Below are positions 7,400 through 31,673 of a stretch of DNA of 64,000 nt, piece by piece. How positions within the stretch are numbered: position 1 is the first letter of the stretch; every line of letters begins with the position of its first letter. The notes under the pieces are model-generated. The model was not told the DNA's origin. It worked only from the letters and a program-made list of their open reading frames with translations, and ran no database searches. The translations under genes and the position numbers were made by a program. Where the stretch lies: the NCBI GenBank assembly GCA_017505535.1, contig JAFVPD010000002.1:29051-93050 (forward strand), given 5' to 3'. Source of the DNA: Muribaculaceae bacterium (GTDB lineage: Bacteria; Bacteroidota; Bacteroidia; Bacteroidales; Muribaculaceae).

Positions 7400-7711
7400 A
7401 TGGCAGTTCTTTGTTATATCATAAACATCTTAGCTCCATTCACCAATGCATTGGGGCTATTTGGATTACTGTTGGCTTGTAGTAGAAGCCAATGGAGCGT
7501 TTTGTATATCGCAATACCATTTGCAATCATTGGCCTTATTTTTGGAATATTAGCCTACAGTAGGGACATTCCTCCCCGTTGGTTCTGGTCGCGCTCGGCA
7601 AACGAAATATTTTCATTCTCAGTAACTGCAGTGTTGGGCTACGCTATAACATTTGCGGCCTATCCCCTCGCTTGGTACATCGCTTCTGATTTCATCTCAC
7701 TAATCAGCTAA
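7400..7711 (+). CDS. 103-residue membrane protein, about three TM helices
   Basis: Hydrophobic spans lie at about residues 5-25, 33-52 and 72-98, with short polar loops (SRSQWS, SRDIPPRWFWSRS). No enzyme motif is present. It is the last gene of the 6933-7711 cluster. It could act with the 68-residue protein as a small membrane complex, but this is inference from adjacency only. Confidence 0.6.
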   Translation: MAVLCYIINILAPFTNALGLFGLLLACSRSQWSVLYIAIPFAIIGLIFGILAYSRDIPPRWFWSRSANEIFSFSVTAVLGYAITFAAYPLAWYIASDFISLIS

Positions 7712-9707: not shown

Positions 9708-10832
9708 ATGAATCTAAAAAAGCTATTAAAATCCGCTAAAAAAGGCGTTGAATTCGTTCAAGAGAGCAAAGAACTAATAGAGGAAGCTGCAGAGACTTTA
9801 GCTACATTAAAGGAAGAACTCGATGAGGCCAAAGATTCTATCATGGCTATCAAAGACATGGCCACTTCCATGTTCAATAATGACGATGATACCAAAACGG
9901 AACAAAACAAAGAGCAAAATGACGTGCCATTAATTGCGCCAAAACAAAAAGGCAATGGCACAACAAAACCCACACCCAAACATGCCGATGCCCCTGTTAT
10001 TGCGGAGGCTAAAGCAGAAGATAAATCTGTAGCTGTGGCCACCTCAACAAAACATGCCGAGGCACCCGTTATTGCGGAGGCTAAAGCAGAAGATAAATCT
10101 GCAACTGTGACCACCACACCCAAACATGCCGAGGCTCCCGTTATTGCGGAGGCTAAAGCAGAAGGTAAATCTGTAGCTGTGGCCTCCACAACAAAACAAG
10201 CCGATGCCCCTGTTATTGCGGAGGCTAAAGCAGAAGATAAATCTGTAGCTGTGGCCACCTCAACAAAACATGCCGAGGCACCCATTATTGCGGAGGCTAA
10301 AGCAGAAGATAAATCTGTAGCTGTGGCCACCCCAACAAAACATGCCGAGGTTGTTGAAGTAATAGAAGTTTGCAATTCCACTGATTCAAAAAAAGAGGAT
10401 ACTTTTTTTGAAGACACGGTAGGGTTATTGGGAGATACTGTCTCTAATACCAATCCACAGAATCCCACCGAAGTAGTGGCTGCTTTATCAGTCTTAGCTC
10501 AAGCCGCACAAGAAACGACCAAATATGTACTAGAACAAGAAGTAAAGCGTGAAGAAATTAGAGCAAAAAAAGAAGTCGCTATACATCAGATTAATGCTAT
10601 TAGTGAAGGCGTAAAATTGTATTTGGAGAAAACATTTGATGAGCGAAGTGCTATTTTTTCAAAACAATTTGAATGCATTGATGAAGCATTAAAAAAAGGG
10701 GACAATGAACTTTTAGCAATAACATTAAATAACATTAATTCACTCGCTACGTCAAGCCCATTCAAAAATCTTGCTGACATAAATTCTGTCCAGCACGCTT
10801 TAGGCAATGGCGACACTGAATGGGATATATAA
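9708..10832 (+). CDS. coiled-coil protein with five 24-residue repeats
   Basis: 374 residues. Residues 1-80 duplicate the preceding protein. Residues about 90-215 hold five 24-residue units of the form APVIAEAKAEDKSVAVATST followed by KHAE. They are proline-poor and Ala/Lys/Glu-rich, and likely extended or helical. The C-terminal 150 residues contain another helical stretch (AAQETTKYVLEQEVKREEIR, then YLEKTFDERS). There is no signal or membrane span. The repeat array could vary in number by slippage. The preceding stop is 2 bases away, so it is translationally coupled. Confidence 0.7.
   Translation: MNLKKLLKSAKKGVEFVQESKELIEEAAETLATLKEELDEAKDSIMAIKDMATSMFNNDDDTKTEQNKEQNDVPLIAPKQKGNGTTKPTPKHADAPVIAEAKAEDKSVAVATSTKHAEAPVIAEAKAEDKSATVTTTPKHAEAPVIAEAKAEGKSVAVASTTKQADAPVIAEAKAEDKSVAVATSTKHAEAPIIAEAKAEDKSVAVATPTKHAEVVEVIEVCNSTDSKKEDTFFEDTVGLLGDTVSNTNPQNPTEVVAALSVLAQAAQETTKYVLEQEVKREEIRAKKEVAIHQINAISEGVKLYLEKTFDERSAIFSKQFECIDEALKKGDNELLAITLNNINSLATSSPFKNLADINSVQHALGNGDTEWDI
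9738..9964 (+). repeat. 227-bp tandem gene duplication, copy 2
   Basis: Partner of 9430-9656. The divergence is so low that duplication or gene conversion must be recent. Confidence 0.9.
9979..10350 (+). repeat. 72-bp in-frame tandem repeats, five copies plus a partial
   Basis: The anchor GTTATTGCGGAGGCTAAAGC recurs at 9996, 10068, 10140, 10212 and (with one change) 10284, exactly 72 bases apart. Differences between copies are mostly in the ACC/ACA-rich linker. Confidence 0.92.
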
Positions 10833-30796: not shown

Positions 30797-31220
30797 ACGC
30801 CATGTAAGGCTACGCACGTTTTCCTCACAAAAACTACTTAGCCAAATCATATTCTACCATTTCATCAATAAAGAAAACGAAATGTTTTCGCAAACGGAAT
30901 TGTTAACAAACCTTTTGCGACAATTTCGAAAATTGCCAAACGATTGAGAATAAGCACAATCATAAACTTCACTACTTAAATTTTAATATTCTAAATTGTC
31001 GCAAATGCCACAATTTAACATTTTATTAAATTTTCTTGCGAAAATCGCATTTTTCACACATTGATAAATGACTGATAATGAGCTAATATTTATACTCGAT
31101 TTTATCACAATTGTCGCAAAAGACTATTTATGAAAACAATGCTCAATCTCTTGCGAAGATTTTTAAGACATTAAACCACTGATATTCAGCCACATCTCAA
31201 ATTTCACACATCAAAAACAC
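30797..31220. other. AT-rich gene-free stretch upstream of the CRISPR leader
   Basis: No gene is visible beyond a 21-codon ORF at 30881. The motif TTTGCGACAATTT, or its reverse complement, occurs near 30914, 30994, 31109 and (in the leader) 31248. These may be promoter or operator remnants. No tRNA or protein fragment is recognised. Confidence 0.4.
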
Positions 31221-31251
31221 TTGTTTTTGAAAATAAAAATTAGTAGATTTG
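31221..31251 (+). promoter_or_regulatory. promoter of the CRISPR leader/anti-repeat transcript
   Basis: TTG at 31221-31223, 20 bases, TAGATTTG at 31244-31251, an exact Bacteroidetes promoter pattern. Transcription would begin near 31257, read through the anti-repeat and enter the array. Confidence 0.65.
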
Positions 31252-31256
31252 CGACA

Positions 31257-31352
31257 ATTTGTTGAAAACAGCAACTAAAGCGCTGGTATTCATAGGGGAA
31301 TTTCATCTATGGAGAAAGCAACAAGAAAAGTCAAAACTCTGGGAATCAGATT
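31257..31352 (+). ncRNA. tracrRNA-like leader RNA with anti-repeat
   Basis: The segment 31280-31303 contains ATAGGGGAATT, complementary (with one G-U pair) to the first 11 bases of the repeat. After a bulge, GCGCTGG can pair with the repeat's CACTGCG part. This two-part duplex with a bulge is the standard crRNA:tracrRNA geometry of type II systems. Just before repeat 1, GGGAATCA (31341-31348) and TGATTCCC (31352-31359) form a perfect 8-bp hairpin that includes the start of repeat 1. Direction matches the array and its promoter. No Cas9 is present locally, so the role is inferred. Confidence 0.5.
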
Positions 31353-31657
31353 GATTCCCCTATACACTGCGTTAGCGGTACTGAGACATGGCCAGATAGC
31401 GTTTATTTGTGTTATATTTTGATTCCCCTATACACTGCGTTAGCGGTACTGAGACATTTTTTTCCATATTTTTTTGTTTTAAATAATGATTCCCCTATAC
31501 ACTGCGTTAGCGGTACTGAGACCAAAAATAGACATAACAATGACACTTGACGTTTTTGATTCCCCTATATACTGCGTTAGCGGTACTGAGACTTCCACCA
31601 TTGACCTTTATGTTTTAATACTGCCGATTCCCCTATATACTGCGTTAGCGGTACTGA
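31353..31657 (+). CRISPR. short CRISPR array, 35-bp repeats, 4 spacers, no cas genes
   Basis: Repeats begin at 31353, 31421, 31488, 31558 and 31626. Each starts GATTCCCCTATA and ends GCGGTACTGAGAC. Repeats 1-3 read CTATACACTG, 4-5 read CTATATACTG. Repeat 5 loses its last three bases (ACTGA then CGG). Spacers are 33, 32, 35 and 33 bases, unrelated to each other and AT-rich. Damage at the right end and the promoter at the left put the leader on the left. The nearby anti-repeat suggests type II. No cas1, cas2 or cas9 occurs in the window, so the array is orphaned or served in trans. Confidence 0.85.
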
Positions 31658-31673
31658 CGGCTCGGTAGATATT

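Follow-up and report, generated by a model that had tools for sequence, protein, structure and literature searches.

The leader of a small CRISPR array in the genome of a Muribaculaceae bacterium carries two anti-repeats, AR1 and AR2, both complementary to the beginning of the repeat of that same array. The array lies in the window, the 64,000-nucleotide stretch of DNA analysed here, which is part of contig C13 (genome of 2.31 Mb in 40 contigs, 90.6% complete). The anti-repeats are real: the array, the identity of its repeat with that of an array on contig C3 and the match of the anti-repeats in two repeat families can all be read from the DNA. That the two elements pair with the first 7–11 bases of nearby repeats and thereby probably tune the cutting or trimming of the first guide is a proposal for which we see about as much reason for belief as for doubt.

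The array (31353–31660; all leader and array features are given for the plus strand) is flanked by an S41 peptidase gene and yidC and comprises five 35-nt repeats and four mutually unrelated spacers of 32–35 nt. Its end was placed at 31660 and not at 31657, because the 3' end of the last repeat is degenerate (GACGG for GAGAC). Repeat 1 (31353–31387) is followed by the leader-proximal and thus presumably newest spacer 1 (31388–31420), repeat 2 (31421–31455), spacer 2 (31456–31487), repeat 3 (31488–31522), spacer 3 (31523–31557), repeat 4 (31558–31592), spacer 4 (31593–31625), and the terminal repeat 5 (31626–31660). Upstream, a promoter −7 box, TAGATTTG (31244–31251), runs into the sequence TTTGCGA, which relatives also have. 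The box was called on the basis of TAnnTTTG, which we take to be the Bacteroides-type −7 motif. Five repeats with unrelated spacers behind a promoter, as described in the original prediction, were thus confirmed. Its statement that the 64 kb hold no cas gene agrees with what was covered here: the six flanking genes examined (S41 peptidase, YidC, CTP synthase, and others) include none, and searches of the genome for the Cas9 HNH domain, Cas1, and Cmr2 gave matches on contigs other than that of the window only.

Repeats 1–3 read GATTCCCCTATACACTGCGTTAGCGGTACTGAGAC. The C at position 13 is restricted to these three copies; T is found there in repeats 4 and 5 and in the repeats on C3. The location of this variant at the leader end, together with the decayed last repeat, suggests the usual polarity with addition of new units at the leader. 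The tag of the last repeat is broken not only in the window (GACGG); in relatives, it is truncated or ATAAAACA-like (L022, L087). Class 1 systems produce their extra guide at the other array end, from the last repeat (PMC13187072, available text), and a broken tag is as expected if this extraneous guide is disfavoured. Comparison of the spacers with phage sequences, proposed as a check in the original prediction, yielded no convincing target for the window spacers searched: a phage search with the whole array returned nothing better than E = 1, and the 20-base cores of spacers 1 and 3 were absent from the viral contigs. The core of spacer 4 matched eight contigs, all of them with one similar stretch (22/33 bases), and was rejected as a protospacer match. 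The repeat tail was not found in the viral contigs either, and the window had no Rfam match. Another repetitive stretch of the window (9996–10331) consists of tandem repeats with a core of approximately 34 nt that are not CRISPR-like and probably represent a repetitive coding stretch.

A further array with this repeat, the search for which was also proposed in the original prediction, was found. The repeat occurs at 14 sites in the assembly (≤3 mismatches), five on C13 and nine on C3, and nowhere else. The C3 array follows an operon typed III-B, which encodes NrN (DHH_CorA), CorA, Cas6, Cmr1, Cmr2/Cas10, Cmr3, Cmr4, Cmr5, and Cmr6. Cas6 is located at L014:7087–8205 (Pfam E 1.1e-6, PADLOC 9.5e-18); the matches of CorA and DHH_CorA (NrN) reached 6.2e-118 and 2.3e-78, respectively. 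The SAM-AMP type III-B system of B. fragilis has the same gene set (PMC10600005, available text). Since the window repeat is the repeat of the C3 III-B array, the window array is an orphan III-B array, presumably processed in trans by the Cas6 of the C3 locus. Within the repeat, ACUGC-GUUA-GCGGU followed by the 8-nt sequence ACUGAGAC fits a predicted Cas6 hairpin plus tag. At the same place in the repeat, the relatives have the hairpins ACUGC-UUCG-GCGGU, ACCGC-UUCG-GCGGU, ACUGC-UGCG-GCGGU, and ACUGC-GAGA-GCGGU.

A small ORF between the CorA and Cas6 genes (L014:8066–8437, minus strand, in the C3 copy) encodes a protein that starts with a hydrophobic segment and ends in a charged tail, for which no Pfam or PADLOC match was obtained. 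Small ORFs of this character adjacent to the CorA gene were also seen at L022:7263–7748 and L087:11763–12116 (minus strand); tblastn ties the one of X. muris weakly to those of C3 and L021, and L087 was matched by position alone. In X. muris and G776, the array has an RT-Cas1 gene next to it (RVT_1 and Cas_Cas1 domains; L087:17232–19556, L022:17175–19463), and both also encode NYN. With the X. muris NYN protein as tblastn query, a match was found at four of eight loci of relatives and none in C3:1–32000. RT-Cas1 was not found in the assembly of the organism (90.6% complete) in searches that in part had no positive control, and the II-C Cas1 is the only one shown there; the C3 contig ends inside the array, and in X. 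muris RT-Cas1 lies past the array.

The original prediction considered that the leader and the array RNA might fold together like a natural single guide, and it raised a Cas9 acting in trans or a regulatory remnant as possibilities. A search for cas9, which it had recommended, led to a II-C locus on contig C4 with cas9 (1232 amino acids), cas1, cas2, and an array of an unrelated 36-nt repeat, GTTGTGGTTTGATGTAGAAATAGAATAATATACAAC. A candidate tracrRNA lies 5' of cas9 on the minus strand (L002, approximately 7550–7690) and is transcribed away from it; its anti-repeat pairs with the GTTGTGGTTTGATGTAGAAATAGAATAATATACAAC repeat at −25.3 kcal/mol, a raw energy without a shuffle baseline, and a strong hairpin follows the anti-repeat. 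In the whole cas9 5' region, the III-B repeat reached −19.0 kcal/mol at best, and the window leader paired with the II-C repeat no better than shuffled sequences (p = 0.40). The II-C locus is a complete cas locus elsewhere in the genome with a different candidate tracrRNA, a situation which the original prediction itself named as speaking against it. Although the bulged duplex of leader and repeat has the right general shape, the Cas9 of this genome has its own repeat and candidate tracrRNA and the window repeat belongs to a Cas6/Cmr locus, so that the leader is almost certainly not part of a single guide for Cas9.

What the original prediction described correctly is the bulged complementarity between the leader and the 5' part of the repeat. 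Block 1 of AR1, ATAGGGGAATT (31292–31302), is complementary to repeat nucleotides 1–11 with one G·U pair. The adjoining segment (31281–31291) contains the bulge TC and the weakly constrained block 2, in which GTAT and CGC extend the helix past the bulge. AR1 shares its strand with the array and was also kept in the second leader of the genome, on C3. AR2, an additional element not covered by the original prediction, has the sequence GGGAATC (31341–31347) and is complementary to repeat nucleotides 1–7; a 5-nt loop, AGATT (31348–31352), separates it from repeat 1. The duplex of window leader and repeat reached −23.8 kcal/mol compared to −13.8 ± 3.1 kcal/mol for 1000 dinucleotide shuffles (p = 0.006); the best helix to repeat nucleotides 1–14 gave p = 0.004 and AR2 p = 0.010. 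The C3 leader has both anti-repeats (p = 0.003 for the whole leader), with six pairs in AR2, which are not significant (p = 0.21). Between the two leaders, 28/29 positions of AR1 and 7/8 of AR2 are identical, compared to 26/58 elsewhere (35/37 vs. 26/58, Fisher p = 2.5e-7, with the limits of the anti-repeats drawn by eye). AR1 fits all repeats of both arrays at nucleotides 1–10. Block 2 is mismatched by the C at position 13 of window repeats 1–3 and is poorly kept in G776b.

For comparison, 29 arrays were assembled via a Cas10 search or the repeat pattern, namely the two arrays of the genome itself, those of L019 and X. muris, and 25 from further genomes. The closest Cas10 relatives, which are 75–95% identical, lie outside this set. 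Left out were arrays with a cut or masked leader (the second G776 copy in L087, the inner groups and C26 of G791, and G1087), decaying or degenerate arrays (G1085 C119, the second array on G1142 C84, and G1156 C2), the single matches in G1110 and G1191, and the second array of G585, which has a different repeat. The G131 repeat was taken as 35 nt long, because its start is unclear from one copy. A leader–repeat duplex with p ≤ 0.006 was detected in six of the 29 arrays (window, C3, G776a, G776b, G400, and G1085); G875b was marginal (p = 0.035), and the remaining 22 were not significant at 0.05, which rules out the anti-repeat as a general III-B feature. Among the latter is X. muris, although the 3' part of its repeat is in common. 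Like L019, G503, G585, G131, and others, it had short, non-significant leader matches, and the ten arrays fetched last had no anti-repeat (lowest p 0.36). G1002 gave p = 0.022 for the AR1 zone and p = 0.099 for the whole leader. Loss of the anti-repeat in related genomes, which the original prediction named as speaking against it, gave a mixed picture: the anti-repeat is clear in six of the 29 arrays, and the exact repeat occurs only in the two arrays of this genome. AR2 was below p = 0.05 in five of the six positive arrays and in one of the 23 others. Twenty of the 29 arrays, among them all six positive ones, have the sequence TTTGCG 90–116 nt upstream of repeat 1.

In ten control arrays from distant loci (two tests each; an eleventh array had no room), 2/20 values were below 0.05: that of L031, whose supposed leader contains a degenerate repeat, and that of L029 at the junction (0.038). 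The repeat pattern of the array's own family, searched with two mismatches, was found in 32 of 297 genomes; outside the organism's own genome, these were mostly single sites, as with the reversed-pattern control. The only real-looking outside match was a single mismatch-free site in G131 at the end of a cmr contig.

The six positive arrays belong to two repeat families, A (window and C3) and B, whose first eleven bases are unrelated (GATTCCCCTAT and GTCAGGGAGTA, respectively; GTCAGAGAGTG in G1085). In each positive leader, none of the repeats of other families (0/27 or 0/23) fitted the AR1 zone as well as its own repeat. With the register fixed, the family A AR1 forms 10/10 pairs with its own repeats and 1–3/10 with family B repeats, and AR1 of family B 8–10/10 with its own and 2/10 with family A repeats. 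Both anti-repeats are anchored at repeat nucleotide 1 in both families, AR2 at leader position −6 with the 5-nt loop in between. A compensatory change was observed within family B (CTCTCTG/CAGAGAG in G1085, CTCCCTG/CAGGGAG in G400 and G776), and the non-Watson–Crick pairs at nucleotides 1–10 of AR1 in the six positive arrays are all G·U (three distinct changes). In G1085, AR2 forms five of seven pairs in the fixed register. Two of the six family B arrays, G889a and G889b, were not significant, with 8/10 and 9/10 AR1 pairs to their own repeat 1; their leaders match the sister repeat 10/10, and the true mismatches to their own repeat 1 number two and one, respectively. The combined p-value over ten families was 0.003 with G776a as the family representative and 0.11 with G889a.

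The narrow distribution could mean that the anti-repeats are a fossil inverted repeat or a product of chance without a present role. Their clear presence in just two of approximately 20 families (grouped by eye) and the match not kept in G889 would be in keeping with this. Nevertheless, the leaders are matched to the repeats in two families with unrelated repeat starts, one compensatory change accompanies this match, and the anti-repeats are better conserved than any other part of the two leaders, which have otherwise diverged; we regard an origin of this kind as improbable. Because the anti-repeat pair is matched to its own repeat also in the second family with its different repeat, the array RNA is predicted to fold back on itself close to the newest spacer.

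The folding of the transcript from the leader through repeat 1 and spacer 1 to repeat 2 was predicted for five of the positive arrays; G1085 is absent, because its contig ends after repeat 1. AR1 paired with repeat 2 with a probability of 0.94–1.00 and AR2 with repeat 1 with a probability of 0.58–1.00 in all five arrays. The window segment 31258–31455 had a fold z-score of −2.2, with four of 200 shuffles as stable. When repeat 3 was included, AR1 moved to it in four of the five arrays (0.87–0.97), the window among them, and was split among repeats 1–3 in C3. Repeat 2 is therefore not the unique partner of AR1, and which partner is taken in vivo would depend on the sequence in which transcription and cutting take place. 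The predicted probability of the Cas6 hairpin in repeat 2 of the shorter transcript was 0.54 in the window, 0.05 in C3, and approximately 0 in the other three arrays, values that stand without a leader-free baseline for repeat 2.

The shift of AR1 to repeat 3 is also what might be seen if the leader acted in trans, as a small antisense RNA, freed when Cas6 cuts repeat 1, that pairs with the repeats of both arrays and damps guide production. The fit of AR1 to every repeat of the window and C3 arrays points in the same direction, as does a local hairpin that the AR1 core could form in both leaders, with part of the core in or near the loop. A partner in cis is always near, however, and its local concentration is higher, which makes a function in trans quite unlikely.

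We favour a clamp in cis instead. If the transcript ended at repeat 2, the helix of AR2 and repeat 1 would be nested in the helix of AR1 and repeat 2, thus forming a clamp around spacer 1. The constrained repeat nucleotides 1–10 probably correspond to the linker between the spacer end and the Cas6 hairpin, and the clamp would therefore make the future 3' handle of the first guide double-stranded. With the leader on the linkers of repeats 1 and 2, the first unit would be shielded. In B. fragilis, Cas6 yields a 72-nt intermediate, the 3' repeat part of which is then trimmed to 37–49 nt; this trimming may be done by NYN, an RNase encoded at such loci that is specific for single strands (PMC11346440, available text). 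The clamp would be expected to impede cleavage of repeat 2 by Cas6, trimming of the first guide at its 3' end, or both, and the dose of the newest guide would be set by it, be it by a boost or by a delay. In this most specific form, with tracrRNA-like anti-repeats of a III-B system that attach to the repeats on either side of the newest spacer, remain on the 3' handle of the first guide once Cas6 has cut, and set its dose, the proposal is tentative, and we put it forward as a possibility with the greater weight still on the side of doubt.

The main rival reading concerns DNA. Cas1-Cas2 (RT-Cas1 in the relatives) could use the inverted repeat starts within the leader as contacts and would then recognise one motif in both leader and repeat, as a signal for integration. 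AR2 together with repeat 1 makes the junction at which new spacers are inserted palindromic, the RT-Cas1 gene lies beside the array in two relatives, and the variant in window repeats 1–3 suggests acquisition at the leader end. Moreover, regularly spaced DNA elements are present upstream. Two copies of a 43-bp element, TCGCAA-N31-TTGCGA, with arms 37 bp apart, were identified in the window (distal copy 30999–31041, proximal copy 31114–31156). Of 18 leaders analysed, 12 (L087, L162, L157, and L019 among others) had outward TCGCAA/TTGCGA pairs of this type, usually two per leader; the pairs were absent from C3, G131, G405, G1156, G1181, and G1104. The arms were 37 bp apart in 21 of the 24 pairs and 27, 36, and 40 bp apart in the others; the window has a 27-bp pair. 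Further single sites of the TCGCAA/TTGCGA type occur near −433 and at the promoter. Two layouts exist between species, in which the inner pair is moved by 10–11 bp (approximately 77 + 98 vs. 88 + 87), about one helical turn. This conserved upstream layout looks like a candidate multi-site DNA-binding array. Just upstream of the C3 promoter (L012:740–960), a CCCTTCCGTCGCTT.GCGACACCCTCCCTACCCC-type stretch occurs twice, possibly as inserted DNA by which the 37-bp elements were lost or shifted there.

Several features of the anti-repeats themselves do not agree well with a role in integration. AR1 is located at −51 in one family and at −65 in the other, and the difference of 14 bp is not a whole helical turn. 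The departures from complementarity in AR1 of the six positive arrays (three changes) are exclusively of the G·U type that RNA pairing permits. Furthermore, the anti-repeats were kept although the organism's own assembly (90.6% complete, with C3 ending in the array) shows no RT-Cas1. An integration signal is a serious alternative that we nonetheless judge to be unlikely.

Leader–repeat pairing has so far been explained as a remedy for guide-repeat systems (types II-A and VI). In a study by Liao et al. from 2022, the II-A leader reportedly paired with repeat 1, possibly acted on repeat 2, and sped up the maturation of the newest guide. The II-A leader RNA works on tracrRNA hybridisation, whereas the system of the window has Cas6 and no tracrRNA. 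In type VI, leader–repeat hairpins block extraneous guides, and in type II-A, they also promote the newest guide (PMC13187072, PMC12080349, available texts). As predicted for the arrays described here, the leader RNA of the type VI-B2 system of Porphyromonas gingivalis pairs with repeat 1 when native and scrambled leaders are compared; the type VI hairpin displaces the processing hairpin and keeps repeat 1 from giving rise to an extraneous guide, a difficulty of guide-repeat systems (PMC13187072, EMBO J 2026, available text). Measured in the way used for type VI, the whole leaders of the window and C3 paired better than scrambled ones (0.006 and 0.003, respectively), and the pairing did not displace the processing hairpin of repeat 1 in either. 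The probability of this hairpin was 0.97 with and 0.83 without the leader in the window, and 0.75 and 0.90, respectively, in C3. Scrambling of the AR1 zone had a small effect of mixed sign (native/scrambled 0.97/0.92 in the window, 0.75/0.79 in C3, 0.13/0.15 in G776a, 0.16/0.30 in G776b, and near 0 throughout in G400 and G1085). A block of the repeat 1 hairpin by AR1 as in type VI is thus unsupported in the window, and block 2, which would be needed for it, is poorly conserved. Unlike in type VI, two anti-repeats are present and the constrained repeat nucleotides 1–10 lie outside the Cas6 hairpin.

Also close is the B. fragilis type III-B system with SAM-AMP signalling, which is alike in Cmr1–6, Cas6, CorA, NrN, the 8-nt 5' handle, and the 3' trimming of guides (PMC10600005, PMC11346440, available texts). 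The word "leader" is absent from the available text of PMC10600005. A further report on B. fragilis III-B describes a highly conserved sequence upstream of the arrays to which no leader could be assigned, and its available text does not contain the word "anti-repeat" (PMC5704556). The G1156 repeat has the last 27 nt of the B. fragilis repeat, and the G1156 array is without anti-repeat. No account of leader–repeat pairing in type III was found among titles and the openings of abstracts, a coverage that most subscription papers fall outside. If the reading proposed here is true, leader RNA would control the newest guide in a Cas6-dependent, RNA-targeting class 1 system that lacks the extraneous-guide reason for such control. 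Leader control of guide dosage would then be a wider principle, which could be tested with one Cas6, one leader, and two repeats.
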